Position numbers and translations under genes: made by a program. From NCBI RefSeq assembly GCF_016907695.1, contig NZ_JAFBCK010000001.1, positions 4,328,001 through 4,392,000 of the forward strand: a stretch of 64,000 nucleotides of DNA, read 5' to 3'. Origin of the DNA: Actinokineospora baliensis. GTDB lineage: Bacteria > Actinomycetota > Actinomycetes > Mycobacteriales > Pseudonocardiaceae. Below, in pieces: positions 53,571 through 64,000 of the stretch (its first letter is position 1; each line of letters opens with the position of its first letter). The notes below the pieces were generated by a model. The model ran no database searches, had not been told where the DNA came from, and saw nothing but the letters and a program-made list of their open reading frames with translations.

Positions 53571-53621
53571 GCGGACAGGCTGCGCCCCGGATGGCAGGAT
53601 GGGGTCGTGCTTCAAGCCGTG

Positions 53622-54036
53622 ATGAGCGGAAGCGGACACCGATGACGGCTGGAACGAGCGATTCTGACTAGCAGGCGCAGTGCGCTGCCGGAGGGGCTGC
53701 CGGGGACGAGCGGAAGGAGACACCGATGACCACCGAGTTGAGCGAGCTCGACTACCGGGCGCAGAGCGCTGCCGGGAGGGACTGCGGCAGTTCTCTTGGT
53801 GGCTTGGGCAGCTGGGTCGGCAAGCGGCCAGGGTGCGCGTGTTGGCCGGGGATGAGCGGAAGCGGACACCGGTGTCCACTGCGCCGGGCAGGCGTGCCAG
53901 CGGGCGCCTTGCGCTGCGGGGGCTGGCCGCGCGCATCGCGGCGATGTCTTGGGCGGTCTGGGTGGCGTGGCCCAGGTGTGTGCTCTGGTGCCTCGGTGGG
54001 TGTGCGCCTGCCGAAGATGAGCGGAAAGCGACAGAC
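53622..54036 (+). repeat. Four degenerate copies of the Lrp-gene leader and N-terminus
   Basis: The string GATGAGCGGAAGCGGACACC followed by ATG or GTG recurs at about 53622, 53708, 53850 and, as the real leader, 54016. The copy at 53726 continues MTTELSELDYRAQ, clearly a decayed version of the real [13 protein letters not shown]. Spacing is 86, 142 and 166 bases. The copies are frameshifted and not credible genes. Confidence 0.65.
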
Positions 54037-54936
54037 ATGGCCACCGAACTGAGCGAGCTCGACCAGCAGGTCGCGTCCGCGTTGCAGGTCGACGGGCGGG
54101 CGGGCCCGGGGCGGATCGCGGGGGTGTTGGGGGTTTCGGGGCGGACGGTGGCCAGGAGCCTTGCCAGGATGGGCTCATCGGTGCGGGTCGTGCGGGTGCC
54201 GGACCGGGCTCGGTTGCCTGAGGTGACCCTGTTGCGGGTGCGGGTCCTGCGCGGCCGGGTCGAGGTGCTCGCGGATGCGCTCGCCAGGCGCCCGGAGGTG
54301 CTCTTCGTCGACGTCATCACCGGGGGTGAGGAGATCAGCGCGGTCACCGTCGGCGGCGCGCCCGCGTTGCCCACCGGTCAGGCGGTCACCAGCGTCCGCG
54401 CCCACGCCGTCTTGCACGTCTTCTCCGACGCCGCTGACTGGCGGACCCGTCTGCTCACCGCCGACGAGGTCGCCGCGCTCACCCCGCCCCCGCCCGCGGA
54501 GACGCACACCCCCGACGCGTTGGACGAGAAGCTGATCGAGCTCCTCACCGCCGACGCCAGGACCGGGCCCGGGCCCCTCGCCGCCGCGGTGCGCGCGCCC
54601 GAGTCGACCGTCCGCCGCCGCCTCGACCGGCTCGCCGACAGCGGGCTGCTGCGGACCTGCGTCGTCGCCGACCCGCGGTTGTTCGGTCTCGCGGTGGACG
54701 CCAACGTCTGGATGGCCGTGCCGCCCGATCGCCTCCCCGAGTTCGGCGAGCGCCTCGCCGCGGACCCGCTCGTGCACGGTGTCCTGGCCACCACGGGCGC
54801 CACCAACCTGATGGCCGCCGTGTTCTGCCGCGACCTGGCGCAGCTGTACGGGTTCGTGACCCGGCTGACCGACATCCCCTCGGCCGAGGTGACCGTCGTC
54901 GGCGGCGCGGTGAAGCGCGCCGGGCACCGCTTCTAG
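54037..54936 (+). CDS. Lrp/AsnC-family regulator with two HTH halves
   Basis: 299 residues. Two AsnC-like helix-turn-helix segments: residues ~5-50 ([39 protein letters not shown]) and ~165-215 ([45 protein letters not shown]), each followed by an effector-like part. Double-length Lrp proteins of this type are known in actinomycetes. It starts at ATG 54037 after GAGCGGAAAGCG. Its stop shares CTAG with the stop of the convergent P450 homologue. Confidence 0.9.
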
Positions 54937-56105
54937 CCCAGCACCACCGGCAGCTCCACCAGGCCGCGGTTGCGGAACGACGGCTGCCAGCGCAGGTCCG
55001 CCAGGTCCACCGCCGCCCGGAGGCCCCTCGACAGCAGGGCCCCGAACGCCGCCGCCGCCTCGACCTGGCTCAGCCGGGACCCGAAGCTGCGGTGGATGCC
55101 GTGCCCGTAGCTCAGGTGCGGGTTGGGATCGCGGTCGAGGACCAGCGACTCCGCGTCGGGGAACACCTCTTCGTCGTGGTTGGCCGAGGCGATCCCCAGC
55201 AGCACCGTCTCACCCGCGGGCACCTCGACCCCCGCGATCTCCACCTCGCGGGTCGGGAACCGCCGGATCGCCCACTGCAGCGGCTGGTCGTAGCGGGTCA
55301 GCTCCTCCACCGCCCTGGGCAGCAGCGTCTCGTCCCGCAGGCACTCCGCGCTCTCGGGGTGCGCCAGCAGCGCCCGCGTGCCGTTGCCGATCAGGTTGAC
55401 CAGGTTCTCGTACCCGGCCCACAGCGCCAGGAACGCCATCGACACCAGTTCCGCCTCGCTGAGCCGGTCCTCGTCGTCGCGCACCGCGATCAGCCCGGAC
55501 AACAGGTCCGGCCCCGGTTCGGCGCGCTTGCGGGCCACGAGGTCCACCAGGTACGCGTGCATCCCGGCCACCGCGTCGCGCGCCGCGGTGGCGGGCTGGT
55601 CCGGGCGCGGGGTCAGCAGGGTCGTCGTCCAGCCGCGGAAGCGGGCCCGGTCGGTCGGGGCGACCCCCAGCAGGTCGCCGATCACCCGCAGCGGCAGCGG
55701 GGCGGCGAAGCGCTCGATCAGGTCGACCGGTTCACCGGAGGGCAACGCCGCCAGCAGGTCCTCGGTCGCCGCGTGGATCGCCGGGGCGAGTTCCTGGACC
55801 CGGCGCGGGGTGAACTCGCCCGCGATGAGCGTGCGCAGCCGGGTGTGGTCGGGCGGGTCGAGGTTGAGCAGGTTGGCGTCGAGCGCGGGCGGTAGCGCGA
55901 AACCGCGGTAGCCCTCGCCCGCGTTGTCCCGGCTCAGCGACAGCCGGGGGTCGGCCAACCCGGCCCGCACGTCGGCGTGGCGGGTGACCACCCACGCAGG
56001 CGATCCGTCCGGTGTGGACACCCGGCGGATCCCGCCATCGGCGCGCAACCGCGCGTAGGTCGGGTACGGGTCGGCGTGGAACGCGGACCCGAACAGCTCA
56101 CTCAT
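54933..56105 (-). CDS. Cytochrome P450 homologue lacking the haem-ligand cysteine
   Basis: 390 residues with clear P450 architecture: the ExxR helix (VEELTRYD) and a haem loop [18 protein letters not shown]. The axial Cys of FGHGIHxCLG is Ser340 here (codon AGC). The I-helix AGHETT equivalent is AGYENL, so the Thr of proton delivery is also absent. The rest of the loop, including GHGIH, is intact, so this is a specific replacement and not general decay. It may bind haem through Ser, or serve as a binding or partner protein as in the EryCII-type P450 homologues. Last gene of a four-gene operon; the start overlaps the membrane-protein stop (ATGA). Confidence 0.92.
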
Positions 56106-57268
56106 CGCCTGCTCCGTTGATCTCTACCGCCGTGCTGGTCGAGGTCGGCGAACGCCCGCGCGACCCGCACCAGCCACGCCGTGTCGGTGTCCTCCGGCGG
56201 TGGCTGGGGCATCGGGGTGCCCGCCGCTGGGGGAGTCGCCGCCGGGCGCCCCGGCATTGCATTCCCCTGCTCAGCGAGGGCGTCGGCGATGGCCGCGGCC
56301 GCGAAGTGGGCGCGCAGGTCGGCTCCCGCCGCCGCGGCGTCGCCGTCGCGGACCGGGTGCAGCCAGCGCAGCCCGTCCTGGATCTCGATCACCCGCCGGT
56401 GCAGCCGGAAGTCGAGGTCGCGGACCGCGCGCCTGCCCGCGGTCCGGTCGAGCGCCAGGTCCGGGTTGGCCGCCACCAACGCCGTCCACAGCGGGTACAG
56501 CGCCTGGTACGCCCGGCGATCGCGCCACCACAGCCGCAACCGCCCCACCTGCGGGCCCCACCCGGGCAGGCTCCACCCGATGAGCGTGCAGATCCCGCCC
56601 AGCCCGGCGCCCAACCGCGCCACGACCTCCCACCGCTGCGGGTCCAACCCCAGCGGCCCGGCCAGCACGTCGGCGTAGCGGGCCAGCACGTAGGCGAGTC
56701 CGCCGAGCGCGCCCGCCGCCGCCAGCCGCAGCCCTCGCCGCAGCCACGCCCCGGTCACCGCGCGCGCGTACCGCAGGCAGCGCACCACGATCAGGTACTC
56801 CGTCACGGCGAACGCGGTCACGTAGAGCATGAGGTACACCGAGTACAACCCGTGCCCGGCGTAGCGGACCGCGGCCGTGGTGGTGTCCTCCTCGGTGAGG
56901 TCCGCCGCCGCGAACAGCACCACCATCGCCGCGAACACCGCGCCGAACGCCCAGATCCGGCGCCGCACCAGCGGTCGAGCCCGCTGCGGTTCCACGGCCC
57001 AGTACGTCAACGCGGCCAACTGGCTGGCCGCGACCCCGATGACGCTGCCCTGCGACAGCACCAGCGCCAGGTTCGGTATCCCCGTCACCCGGTCGAGGGC
57101 CGCCCACACCCGGGGATCGCTGATGGTGAACGTCAACCCCATGAACAGGTAGAAGAACCCGACCGCCACCGCCGCCGGGCCCCGGTCCCGGCGCAGCAGC
57201 GCGGGCAGCTTGAACAGCAGGCTCACCCACGCCACCGCCGCGCACAGCGGGTAGAGGACCCCGTTCAT
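56102..57268 (-). CDS. MAB_1171c-like membrane protein
   Basis: 388 residues. About seven N-terminal membrane segments ([22 protein letters not shown]..., [20 protein letters not shown], ...), then a ~150-residue cytoplasmic helical region ([25 protein letters not shown]..., [18 protein letters not shown]) and a Pro-rich tail. This layout matches the MAB_1171c putative transporter family found in actinomycetes beside XRE and ImmA/IrrE genes. Function unknown; the cytoplasmic part could interact with the IrrE protein or the P450 homologue. Overlaps both neighbours by four bases. Confidence 0.8.
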
Positions 57269-57807
57269 CCGGCCGCGTTCACCCCGGGCACGGGCGGCGC
57301 CGAGTGGTCGAGCGAGTCGGCGATGCGCGCGGCGACCCCGTCCGGCCTGGCGGGCGCCCGCCGCAGCCGCGCCGCCAGCAGGTAGGCCATCACCTCGGCC
57401 TGTTGTTCCTGCTCGTCGCTGTAGTCCTTGCGCGCCAGCATGTCGCGCACCAGGTCCGGGTCGATGTCGGGGAAGAACACCGCCGCCGTGTCCTCGTCGA
57501 GGTGCCCGCCGCCGCGGTGGCAGCAGATCATGTGCCCGATCTCGTGCAGGATGATGTGCTCCCGGTGCGCTCGCGCGGTGGTCTCGTCGTAGAAGATGAA
57601 GTCCGCTTCCCGCGTGGCCACCCAGAGACCGCACGGCTCGGACGCGCGCATCGGCACCGGCACCACGTGCAGCGGCCGCCCGCGCACGGCGGCCAGGTGC
57701 TCGCACAACGCGGCGAGATCGAGCCCGGCGGGCAAGTCGAACTGGGCCAGCAGTTCCGCGCAGCCGCGCCGCAGCGCGCGCAGGTCCCGCCGCGACACCC
57801 CGGTCAC
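57265..57807 (-). CDS. ImmA/IrrE-family metallopeptidase
   Basis: 180 residues. Zinc motif HEIGH at residues 88-92 in HIILHEIGHMICCH, and a later Glu in EQEQQAEVMAYLLAARL which completes the site in this family. ImmA cleaves the ICE repressor ImmR and IrrE cleaves the XRE repressor DdrO, so the XRE protein encoded immediately upstream (GTGA overlap) is the obvious substrate or partner. The start GTG at 57807 lies inside the XRE stop. Confidence 0.93.
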   Translation of the reverse strand: MTGVSRRDLRALRRGCAELLAQFDLPAGLDLAALCEHLAAVRGRPLHVVPVPMRASEPCGLWVATREADFIFYDETTARAHREHIILHEIGHMICCHRGGGHLDEDTAAVFFPDIDPDLVRDMLARKDYSDEQEQQAEVMAYLLAARLRRAPARPDGVAARIADSLDHSAPPVPGVNAAG

Positions 57808-58262
57808 GGCTCGGGGTTCTCGGTGCTCGGGTCGGCGTCGGTGACCGGCGGCAGACCGCGCTGCCTGCGCGCCTGGTCGAGCAGCGCGGTGATCAGGTCC
57901 AGGTTCGACTGGGGCAGCCCCATCGCGCGCTGCGCGATGCCGACCACGCCCCGGTCGCGCAACATCGCCAGGTGCTCGAGCTGCTCGCGCACCCGCTCGC
58001 CCTGGCCGTCCTCGTCGTCGAAGAAGTAGCTGGGGTTCACCCCGAAGAACCGCGCCAGCGCGACCAGCAGGTCCGTCGACGGGCTGCTCCGCTTGCCGGT
58101 GCGCAGCATCGACAGGTACGCGCCGCTGACCCGCAACTGCGGGTTGGCCCGCTTGATCTCGGCCGCGACCTCGGTGTTGGACCACTGCCGTCCCCGGGGT
58201 CGACTCAGCCGGAACAGCCGGTCCAGCCGCGCGGTCAACGGCGTGGTGGCGCCGTCGGACAT
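57804..58262 (-). CDS. XRE-family transcriptional regulator
   Basis: 152 residues. Helix-turn-helix near residues 15-75 (WSNTEVAAEIKRANPQLRVSGAYLSMLRTGKRSSPSTDLLVALARFFGVNPSYFFDDE). ATG 58262 (MSDGATTPLTARL) was chosen; an upstream ATG at 58289 adds nine residues. First gene of the XRE-IrrE-membrane-P450 operon. Its upstream region holds two related palindromes that could be its operators. Confidence 0.92.
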   Translation of the reverse strand: MSDGATTPLTARLDRLFRLSRPRGRQWSNTEVAAEIKRANPQLRVSGAYLSMLRTGKRSSPSTDLLVALARFFGVNPSYFFDDEDGQGERVREQLEHLAMLRDRGVVGIAQRAMGLPQSNLDLITALLDQARRQRGLPPVTDADPSTENPEP

Positions 58263-58314
58263 CCCATCCCCCCACCAGTGGGTCGTCACTCCAACTCGAC
58301 CAGTGTCGCAGGGT

Positions 58315-58325
58315 AACTGTCAGTT
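58315..58325. promoter_or_regulatory. Palindrome AACTGTCAGTT, candidate XRE operator 1
   Basis: A perfect AACTG/CAGTT palindrome that overlaps the first bases of a plus-strand TTGACA box (58324-58329). Confidence 0.5.
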
Positions 58326-58354
58326 GACAATTCGCCTACGCGGCTGGCTACGAT
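58324..58354 (+). promoter_or_regulatory. Candidate sigma-70-type promoter reading away from the XRE operon
   Basis: TTGACA (58324-58329), 19-base spacer, TACGAT (58349-58354). The spacer is long. It would start transcription near 58361, into a gene-free structured region. Confidence 0.4.
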
Positions 58355-58360
58355 GACCCA

Positions 58361-58640
58361 CAAGGGTTAACTCCCAGTTAGAGCACCAAACGCGAGTGCG
58401 CTCGGACTCCAGGCCACTGTGCGTGGGGGTGTGCCGTGTGGCGGGGTTCAAGGGGGTACCCCGCCACACGGGGCCCCGATTCCCTCACCCGCGGTACCCG
58501 TGGTGGTACCGGCTGTGGAGGTCTCCAGAAAGTAGGAGTTCCGCGCTCAACCGGCCTGGGGGTTACCGGGAGCGCGGAACTAGAACTAGCGTAGTACGCC
58601 ACCGGGCCCCGTGCACAGCGGCACGGGGAAATTTGTCGCA
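58361..58640 (+). ncRNA. Candidate structured non-coding transcript
   Basis: Downstream of the promoter-like boxes are a 13-bp hairpin (58434-58446 with 58459-58471), a 12-bp hairpin (58537-58548 with 58570-58581) and an 8-bp hairpin followed by AAATTT (58607-58628). The first two have stems too long to be chance in this context. No good ORF is present up to 58851. This is a prediction from structure only. Confidence 0.3.
58368..58380. promoter_or_regulatory. Palindrome TAACTCCCAGTTA, candidate XRE operator 2
   Basis: It shares TAACT..AGTT with the palindrome at 58315-58325; the centres are 54 bases apart, about five helical turns. Both lie between the XRE start and the structured region, fitting autoregulation. 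Confidence 0.5.
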
Positions 58641-61440: not shown

Positions 61441-64000
61441 CTACCGGGTCCGGCGCCGGGTCCTGCCGACCAGCAGCAGCCCGGCGCCGCCGACCAGCAG
61501 CCAGACGCCCAGCGCCGCGACCGGGGTCACCGCTGCGCCGGTGTCGGGCAGCGGGTCACCGGGTCGGGCTTGGCCCACCGGCGCGGCGGAGGTGGTCGTG
61601 CTGCTGGGAGCCGGTGGGAACCCGGTGGTCGGGTTGGCCGTGCTGGTCGGGCCCGTGGTGGTGTGCGTCGTGGACGGCGTTGTCGCGGTGGGCGTTGTCG
61701 TTGTGCTCGGACCGGTCGTGGGGGTGGTGCTGGAGGTCGGGGGAGTTGCGGTGGTGGGGGGAGTGGTGGTTGGGGGCTGCCCGGAGGCGAAGTCGACGAC
61801 CGCGGTCTCGCCCGGAGCGATGTGGACATCCGCGCTGGTTCCCGGGGGCGCGGGCTCGGTGTTCACCGTGATCGTCCAAGGGGCGAGGGCGGGGTCGGCG
61901 GTGATGGAGACCTCGACCCAGCCGGTCCCCGGCACCGCCAGCCGGTACGCACCGGTGGCATCGGTGCGGTCGTAGGCCGTGCCGGGGACCGCGATCACGG
62001 CACCGGCCAGTGGTGCGCCGCGGACGACGACGTGCCCGGTGACCAACCCGGCGGCCGCGAAGTCGTCCCACCGGTAGGCCGCGGTGGTCAGCGCCTCGGT
62101 CAGCACCGTCGCGGTGGTGTCCGAGTCGACCTCGTAGAGCGAGAGGTCCACCACCCGGTACGGACCGTCCACGCGGTGCCCGTTGATGAGCCTGCCGTCG
62201 TAGCGGATGGTGAGCGTGTGCGTGCCCGCGGCGAGGACTTGTTCGTCGCCGCTCCAGCCGATGTCCTTCCCGGTGGCCTCGACGAGCCGCGCGTTGACCG
62301 CGTAGGTCCCGGGCCGGGACACGACGACCCGGGCCGCGACGTCGAGCCAGTCGTAGGTCCCGGATCCGTCGGCGTCCACCGGGTGGTCGGTCAGCGAGTC
62401 GAGGAACACCCCGCCGCCCGGCCGGAACCCCGCCGCGGGGTAGACCGCCGTCCGGTGGGCCGCCAAGGCGAAGTCGACCTCGCCGGTGTTGTCGCGCAGC
62501 ACGACGTTCGACAGCAGGTACGGTCCGTCGACGCCGTGCCGCCGCAGGTCCTCGCCGGGGAAGTCCAACGCCAGGGCGCCCGCGCCCGCGGTCACCGTGC
62601 CGGTGGTGGTCGCCGTCGTGATGAACCGACCCGCCGCGTCGAACAACGCGCCGGTCAGCGTGTAGTCGCCCGGCCGGTGGACCGCCACCGCCGCGGTGAC
62701 CCGCACCCGGTCCGGTCGCCCGTCACCGTTGCCGTCCGCCGCCACGTCGGTGTAGGTCGCGGGCAGGGTGCCCGGGGGCGGGTCGAACCGCTCGGCGGGG
62801 TAGCCGTCGACGGTGTGCTCGACGGCCATCACCGTGGTGTCGGCGGCGTCGACCACCCGCAGCAGCAACCGGAACGCCGACTGCCCGGCGCGGCGCGCGA
62901 TCGCCCGCCCGTCGAAGTCCAGCACGGCCTGGCCGGGCGTCGCCGCGGCGGTCGCGGTGCCGATGACCTCCCCGCCCTGGCCGACCAGGGTGCCGCGCAG
63001 GGTGACCTGTCCACTGTCGACGGATCGGACCCGCGTGACCACCCGGAGCAGGTCGAACCCCCCGCTGCCGTCGAGGTCGACACCCGCGGGACTGATGTCG
63101 TGGTCCACTGACACCCGGGGCCGCTGGAAGGCGTCGACCGGGTAGGTGGCCGTCCGGTGCGTGATCGACGAGCTCGCGAAGCGGTCGTCGACCTGGATGG
63201 CCACCGTGTACGGGCCGCCGGTCCCGCGCGCCCACAGCTGTTCGCCCGCGAAGTCGAGCGTGGCGGTCCGTGTCCCGGGTGCGACCGCCAGTTCGCGCTC
63301 GACCACCGCGACCGGGACGTCGCCCGGTGCGACCAGGTCCGCCCGCAGCCGGACCGTGCCCGTCCCGGTCCCGGTGACCGGGACGGTGACCCTGAGCAGT
63401 TCCGCGCCCGCGACCCCGTCGGCGTCCACCAGCGCGTCGGCGGCCGCGCCGATCTCCGCCAGCGCGGTTTGGAACCGCCCGTGGTCGTAGGGTCCCGTGG
63501 TGTGCGTGGCCGCGGCCACCTCGGTGCCGTCGGTGGTGAACAGCCGCACCAGCACAGTGAACGGACCATCCACACCGGACCTCCGGATCGGCGCGCCGGG
63601 GAAGTGGATGGTGGCGGGACCGCCGTCGAGGGTCGTAGTGGGCGCCGGGTTCACCACCGCCTCCGGGTCGACCCGGCCCCGGGCGATCGCCCCACCGCCG
63701 CTGTCAAGCAGGCGGGCGTCGACGGTGTAGGTGCCCGCCGGCGCGGCGATCGGCACCTCCGCGCGCAGGAAGTCCCACTGCCCGTTGGCGTCCAGGTCGA
63801 CTCCGGTGTCGGTGCCCTCGACCGCGAGCGCGGTCACCGGCGCTGTTCGCGGCGCGGGCCCGACCGGTTCGAAAGTGACCAGTGCCCACCCCGTGGCGTT
63901 GCGCACCGTCCCGCCGCCGAGCCGGTAGGTCCGCCCCGGGTTCGCCACCTCGGTACACATGTCCTTGGCGGCGTCGACCTTGCAGAAGACGTTCTGCCGG
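61441..64000 (-). CDS. LPXTG-type cell-wall surface protein, 5' end outside window
   Basis: The frame is open to the right edge, so only the C-terminal ~852 residues are seen. It has beta-rich repeats of about 120-130 residues, each with a Y-P-x-x-x-F-type start (YPVDAFQRP, YPAERFDPP, YPAAGFRPG) and calcium-loop-like DxDGxGxxD motifs. A carboxypeptidase-regulatory-like domain follows (GHVVVRGAPLAGAVIAVPGTAYDRTDATGAYRLAVPG), then a Thr/Pro stalk of about 60 residues. The C-terminus is a sorting signal: LPDTG, hydrophobic stretch, RTRRRTR. Sortase attachment to the wall is expected. The N-terminal function is outside the window. Confidence 0.85.
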   Translation of the reverse strand, partial: RQNVFCKVDAAKDMCTEVANPGRTYRLGGGTVRNATGWALVTFEPVGPAPRTAPVTALAVEGTDTGVDLDANGQWDFLRAEVPIAAPAGTYTVDARLLDSGGGAIARGRVDPEAVVNPAPTTTLDGGPATIHFPGAPIRRSGVDGPFTVLVRLFTTDGTEVAAATHTTGPYDHGRFQTALAEIGAAADALVDADGVAGAELLRVTVPVTGTGTGTVRLRADLVAPGDVPVAVVERELAVAPGTRTATLDFAGEQLWARGTGGPYTVAIQVDDRFASSSITHRTATYPVDAFQRPRVSVDHDISPAGVDLDGSGGFDLLRVVTRVRSVDSGQVTLRGTLVGQGGEVIGTATAAATPGQAVLDFDGRAIARRAGQSAFRLLLRVVDAADTTVMAVEHTVDGYPAERFDPPPGTLPATYTDVAADGNGDGRPDRVRVTAAVAVHRPGDYTLTGALFDAAGRFITTATTTGTVTAGAGALALDFPGEDLRRHGVDGPYLLSNVVLRDNTGEVDFALAAHRTAVYPAAGFRPGGGVFLDSLTDHPVDADGSGTYDWLDVAARVVVSRPGTYAVNARLVEATGKDIGWSGDEQVLAAGTHTLTIRYDGRLINGHRVDGPYRVVDLSLYEVDSDTTATVLTEALTTAAYRWDDFAAAGLVTGHVVVRGAPLAGAVIAVPGTAYDRTDATGAYRLAVPGTGWVEVSITADPALAPWTITVNTEPAPPGTSADVHIAPGETAVVDFASGQPPTTTPPTTATPPTSSTTPTTGPSTTTTPTATTPSTTHTTTGPTSTANPTTGFPPAPSSTTTSAAPVGQARPGDPLPDTGAAVTPVAALGVWLLVGGAGLLLVGRTRRRTR

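Follow-up and report, generated by a model that had tools for sequence, protein, structure and literature searches.

The window analysed here, a stretch of 64,000 nucleotides from Actinokineospora baliensis, contains four genes arranged in the order XRE-type regulator, ImmA/IrrE-like putative metalloprotease, MAB_1171c-family membrane protein and cytochrome P450 (Table 1). Each of the three junctions between them is a 4-nt overlap, and the starts of the ImmA-like and MAB_1171c genes were assigned from these overlaps and from homologues. The regulator matches HTH_3 with 25.2 bits (cut-off 23). The ImmA-like protein scores 17.0 bits against Pfam M78 (PF06114), for which the cut-off is 22. The membrane protein matches NF042915 with 260.2 bits (cut-off 100) and PF20182 with 99 bits, and its predicted helices would fit about seven transmembrane segments followed by a C-terminal DUF6545 region.

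Table 1. Features of the P450 operon and its upstream region, in window coordinates.
Feature	Position	Strand	Basis
Putative serine-ligated cytochrome P450, 390 aa, orthologue of P450-G9 (Actinokineospora terrae)	54933..56105	-	PF00067, 9CJG match, AF2 model
Ser340 codon AGC at the haem-ligand position (+ strand gct)	55086..55088	-	Sequence; AGC/AGT in 9/9 orthologues
MAB_1171c-family membrane protein, 388 aa; 4-nt overlap with P450 gene	56102..57268	-	NF042915, PF20182, AF2 model
ImmA/IrrE-like putative metalloprotease, 180 aa, HEIGH; 4-nt overlaps on both sides	57265..57807	-	HExxH
XRE-type HTH regulator, up to 161 aa; start uncertain, internal ATG near 58262	57804..58289	-	HTH_3
Proximal palindrome, AACTGACAGTT core, putative operator; within promoter-like TTGTCA-N17-GACACT (- strand)	58314..58326	.	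Conservation
Distal palindrome, AACTGGGAGTT core, putative operator, 54 bp from proximal	58368..58380	.	Conservation

The P450 gene is convergent with an AsnC/Lrp-type regulator gene (54037-54936, + strand), which overlaps its end by 4 nt and encodes a protein of roughly doubled length, in which there are two AsnC-type helix-turn-helix stretches. Four degenerate direct copies of the leader and 5' end of this regulator gene (67-78% identity to the reference) lie at 53613-54070, and the start encoded by the copy at 53697 is very similar to that of the gene itself. On the other side of the four genes, an 839-aa repetitive protein encoded at 61441-63960 (- strand) has a DUF4785-type domain match and, by eye, a cell-wall-anchor-like C-terminus.

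The P450 open reading frame is intact, and its product belongs to the P450 superfamily, as indicated by a PF00067 match above the gathering score (44.5 bits, cut-off 22.8, residues 200-359), the P450 fold of the AF2 model (pLDDT 88.4), the ExxR pair and the GxGxH frame. The sequence-only reading of this locus had placed serine at residue 340, where the haem-ligating cysteine is expected, and the translation, the AGC codon and the comparison with homologues all bore this out: among the best 120 of 3558 homologues at E 1e-60, with the window protein counted, the ligand column holds serine in 17 and cysteine in 103. With Ser340, the window protein lacks the cysteine thiolate ligand that characterises haem-thiolate P450 monooxygenases. 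The serine proteins occupy ranks 1 to 16 and, as a truncated sequence, rank 46 of these best 120, and the 16 relatives of the window protein among them include ten from Actinokineospora and two from Haloechinothrix. The haem loop reads RSFGSRL in 16 of the 17, and RSFGAHL in the remaining one (P0016). Across nine orthologous genes the serine codon is AGC in six and AGT in three, and this use of both codons speaks against a read error. The same genome holds 16 other P450-like matches with cysteine in the haem loop of every one (15 read off the alignment, and one, L096, off the loop pattern only). A search with residues 322-362 as the query, which required exact 5-residue words, found no serine-loop P450 outside the clade; 14 of its 47 candidates had the serine loop, all of them from the clade.

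Retention of the ExxR helix and of the haem loop frame, which had also been noted from the sequence, extends to all 17 serine proteins (E268, R271, G334, G336 and H338). These residues and H87, R91, R281 and R282 are constant in serine and cysteine proteins alike where present; they comprise the ExxR pair and presumed haem-propionate contacts. Other positions separate the two groups. In the haem loop, Y333, R339, S340 and F341 are found in all serine proteins and in none of the 103 cysteine proteins; at position 333, seven before the ligand and in our assumption equivalent to F393 of BM3, the cysteine relatives have L or F. S343 is present in 16/17 serine versus 2/103 cysteine proteins and R344 in 16/17 versus 0/103, and R347 is replaced by Q in 14/17 serine proteins. 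Nine more group-separating positions lie outside the haem loop, including G25, R140, T270, Q274 and P327.

The proposed loss of the I-helix threonine held only in part. Threonine is indeed absent from residue 234, which we take to be the position of T252 in P450cam, but Asn234, the residue after the acid, is present in 92/103 cysteine relatives as well as in 17/17 serine proteins, and so does not belong to what changed in the serine clade. The acid itself, E233, is retained in the serine proteins. The loss that is specific to them is at residue 235, which is T or S in 100/103 cysteine relatives and L (13) or V (4) in the serine proteins. Loss of both the thiolate and T/S235, with the haem anchors kept, suggests a haem protein that has departed from ordinary oxygen activation.

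In a maximum-likelihood tree of 49 rows, the 16 full-length serine P450s were placed on one side of a single branch (support 100/100), corresponding to one change at the ligand position. This grouping persisted when the haem-loop columns were removed (SH-aLRT 100, one change). The trees contained 22 of the 103 cysteine proteins and the P450s of 11 of 22 distinct cysteine loci, and the truncated serine protein (P0046, 277 aa) was omitted. Comparison of the window gene with eight orthologues gave dN/dS values of 0.15-0.43, similar to those of the three operon partners (0.14-0.45), and low dN/dS in the P450 together with the conserved serine indicates purifying selection on a working protein. Serine at this position is common to one branch within a family that otherwise has cysteine, and its conservation is accompanied by that of the loop and of the four genes as a unit. 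From this we infer that cysteine gave way to serine once, in the CYP107-like protein ancestral to the Actinokineospora/Haloechinothrix clade.

The idea that the serine P450 is fixed in a tightly coupled operon with the XRE, ImmA-like and MAB_1171c genes was likewise supported. The four-gene order was found at 9/9 serine loci, namely the window, seven other Actinokineospora and Haloechinothrix halophila (L031-L038 are from the same genomes as L019-L026). Across 16 genomes of the genus the unit was present all or none: an orthologous MAB_1171c gene (69-100% identity) occurred in exactly the eight with a serine P450, and the eight without one had either a MAB_1171c paralogue of at most 35% identity or no match at E 1e-20. 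The match to the MAB_1171c orthologue crosses one TGA in two carrier genomes and is split into two pieces in a third, which indicates that the C-terminal end of this protein varies. AsnC, inositol-phosphatase, LuxR and GGDEF genes flank some of the serine loci but not all, which leaves the four genes as the conserved unit. We found no report of a P450 together with XRE and ImmA in the open-access papers searched.

The AF2 model of the MAB_1171c protein (pLDDT 71) contains about seven long helices, with pLDDT mostly under 50 from residue 273. The top Foldseek matches of this model were GPCRs, with a best E of 6.5e-3 and none reaching 0.001, and a receptor role for this 'putative transporter' may be taken as a lead only. 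Knockout of MAB_1171c in Mycobacterium abscessus is reported to be linked to reduced biofilm mass (PMC8707978). Anti-phage defence was considered as a role for the locus and set aside: PADLOC returned nothing for the P450 or the MAB_1171c protein, and its matches were marginal both for the ImmA-like protein (capP, E 0.015) and for the XRE regulator (HTH_VI, E 0.0015, the best; capH, E 0.02; RmrA, E 0.054).

It had been suggested that homologues from the same gene context be compared for conservation of Ser340. This comparison gave nine serine loci and eight more distant cysteine loci, so that cysteine is not the residue of nearly all syntenic homologues. In the eight cysteine cassettes, a MAB_1171c gene lies directly before a same-strand P450 gene whose product is 50-55% identical to the window protein; they come from Crossiella (two), a Kutzneria MAG, Nocardia sp. 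CDC159, Streptomyces lilacinus and three genomes of the same family (G016, G085 and G020). An ImmA-like gene is present in all eight and an XRE gene in six, and the HExxH motif of the ImmA-like protein was found in 9/9 serine operons and in the 8/8 cysteine loci tested. At fourteen other distinct cysteine loci there was no MAB_1171c match in the stretch examined. Duplicate loci were counted once (L039/L053, L041/L054, L044/L061 and L046/L066), mycobacterial loci of about 31% identity (L049-L051) were left out of the tree and synteny counts, and three plasmid-borne cysteine relatives (53-55% identity, no MAB_1171c annotated nearby) are uncounted. Seven of the cysteine-cassette P450s were scattered on the tree, requiring six changes, a number matched or bettered in 152/500 shuffles. 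The tree is compatible with a cassette that was ancestral to all and with one that was joined several times, and does not tell between them. The simplest reading is that serine replaced cysteine within a pre-existing arrangement of this kind.

MAB_1171c genes are common, with matches at E 1e-20 in 112 of the 160 family genomes drawn. At 20 other MAB_1171c loci a P450 gene was directly downstream in none, and one locus (L076) has a P450-like match further off on the other strand. These 20 loci were picked from those not already seen beside a P450, so this absence is partly built in, and the picking of open reading frames was crude. A single downstream gene could be assigned by family search, to PadR, and a 75-residue piece of L074 matched no family. 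By eye, the next genes at L078, L086 and L074 seem amidohydrolase-like or methyltransferase-like, as though different enzymes travelled with the MAB_1171c cassette at different loci.

Both palindromes upstream of the XRE gene have the form AACT-N3-AGTT. In 8/9 serine operons the proximal box matches at no fewer than 7 of its 8 positions, as the distal box does in 9/9, and where both boxes score (eight operons) their spacing is 54 bp in seven and 55 bp in one. The TTGTCA-N17-GACACT sequence around the proximal palindrome, present in 7/9 serine operons, resembles a -35/-10 pair; a sigma-70 scan found no promoter-like site by its rule, and the case for this candidate promoter is therefore one of conservation alone. 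Within the window, allowing at most one mismatch, the palindrome pattern occurs at these two sites only, giving four strand matches where 0.17 were expected and a count reached in 0/100 shuffles. A genome-wide search with a longer pattern and one mismatch found just these two sites, but because a backward control also matched twice, the genome-wide count alone proves nothing. A third box, matching at 7 of 8 positions, is located further up in the upstream stretch of the window and was not seen in the other eight serine operons. Of six upstream regions of cysteine cassettes examined, five had no palindrome, and that of Kutzneria had a single 7-of-8 box. ImmR/ImmA and DdrO/IrrE are known pairs switched by ImmA-type proteolysis. 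The simplest reading of the present arrangement would be an operon whose regulator represses it, has few targets elsewhere or none, and is switched in the same manner.

Judging from these sequence comparisons, the P450 has most likely ceased to be an ordinary monooxygenase while remaining a haem protein, under local XRE/ImmA control. The P450 would bind haem, and ordinary monooxygenation would have been lost with the thiolate on the proximal side and the alcohol of T/S235 on the distal side. The XRE protein may repress its own promoter via the two palindromes until it is removed by the ImmA-like protease in response to a signal, for which the membrane protein is a possible sensor; the enzymatic or ligand-binding output of this switch would then be the serine-haem P450. 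Taken whole, the reading of a natural serine-ligated P450, orthologous to P450-G9 and encoded by the last gene of the operon, that acts as an XRE/ImmA-switched haem protein other than an ordinary monooxygenase is the one we consider somewhat better than an even bet. We propose more tentatively, as a possibility that probably falls short, that the protein is a natural P411 derived from a CYP107-type monooxygenase, performing non-monooxygenase chemistry or ligand sensing under an XRE-ImmA-membrane-receptor switch, with the serine, the proximal loop (Y333, R339, F341 and R344) and the loss of T/S235 co-selected.

Several alternatives were weighed against these proposals. Instead of being an enzyme, the serine-haem P450 might use its haem to sense redox state, CO, NO or a small ligand and so act back on the XRE/ImmA switch. 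The strict coupling with a regulator, a protease and a membrane protein is consistent with such a role, as is the loss of both the thiolate and T/S235. However, the P450 fold has been retained, and the eight cysteine homologues with an ordinary haem loop in the same place indicate that this place can be an enzyme's, and we regard a sensor as rather unlikely. A slightly smaller chance attaches to persistence of substrate oxidation by a peroxide-driven route, peroxygenase- or peroxidase-like, that an oxygen-ligated haem would allow. E233 and the ExxR pair are retained and the fold is as in CYP107 enzymes, which would suit such a route, but the proximal thiolate and T/S235 are both missing, and the operon includes no recognised peroxide-handling gene. 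In known P450s, loss of the proximal thiolate and of T/S235 lowers O-O bond cleavage.

EryCII and DesVIII, which activate glycosyltransferases, are P450-derived proteins without the haem cysteine, and the sequence-only reading had pointed to partner proteins of this kind. A haem-free partner role fared poorly, and we consider it very improbable. TIGR04515 is among the below-cut-off matches of the window protein, which is no surprise if the protein is CYP107-like, but at 129.8 bits it is far below the cut-off of 343. The haem-anchoring residues, a second difference from EryCII and DesVIII, are kept and invariant, no glycosyltransferase is present among the other operon genes (XRE, ImmA-like and MAB_1171c), and the structure entry for the orthologue is titled as serine-ligated. 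Sequencing error or a decaying pseudogene, for which no supporting evidence was found, has a negligible chance, given serine in 16 relatives from other sequences, two serine codons (AGC and AGT) and dN/dS below 0.45 in 8/8 comparisons.

That structure entry also decides the question of novelty. A natural serine form kept in a regulatory operon had been put forward as one that would be new as a described system, but P450-G9 of A. terrae, from the same orthologous group, had already been deposited (PDB 9CJG, released 2025-03-12). The entry title, 'non-canonical, serine-ligated cytochrome P450', ligand-free and in a closed conformation, names no function, and it is on this title alone that the haem of the orthologue is reported by others to be ligated by serine. 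Over all 391 residues, the printed alignment shows no difference between 9CJG and the P450 encoded in the A. terrae operon, and the A. terrae locus is the same operon with the same neighbours as in the window. Together, the entry and this match place natural serine ligation in this orthologous group already on record. In the open-access papers searched we found none on a natural serine-ligated P450, P450-G9 or 9CJG, although a subscription paper may well exist. P450-G9, the best match to the window protein, is its direct orthologue in another species, with 81-83% identity, an identical haem loop and a shared operon and flanking genes, and we found no difference of kind between the two. The present analysis adds its setting in evolution and in the genome: a single branch, selection, a four-gene unit present all or none, and conserved operator-like sites. 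The operon, its likely operators and its all-or-none presence provide a handle on the purpose of the serine-haem P450, and the cysteine homologues from loci of like gene order could serve as natural controls.

The naturally fixed Cys-to-Ser P450 shows that evolution took the same step as laboratory engineering. To our knowledge, the chemistry performed by laboratory Cys-to-Ser P450s is not known from nature. The engineered P411 variants, such as serine-ligated P450BM3 and CYP119 C317S, have the same serine at the ligand position of the P450 fold. Engineered serine-ligated P450s are used for carbene and nitrene transfer (PMC12602113, PMC9837850). Spectra of CYP119 C317S have shown a band near 406 nm. 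For P411 the value is 411 nm, compared with 450 nm for ordinary P450s. The P411 variants are laboratory mutants, whereas the serine in the window protein is natural and is accompanied by other clade-specific residues, among them Y333, R339, F341 and R344. The cysteine cassettes of Crossiella, Kutzneria, Nocardia and Streptomyces lilacinus share the gene order and strand of the serine operon and differ in the cysteine of their P450. Cysteine is also the ligand in PikC, EryF and P450s generally. The CYP107-type cysteine P450s (CYP107X1, 7WEX; PikC; EryF) have a like fold and 40-51% identity to the window protein and are probably the ancestral kind; in the alignment, 7WEX has the cysteine ligand where the window protein has serine.
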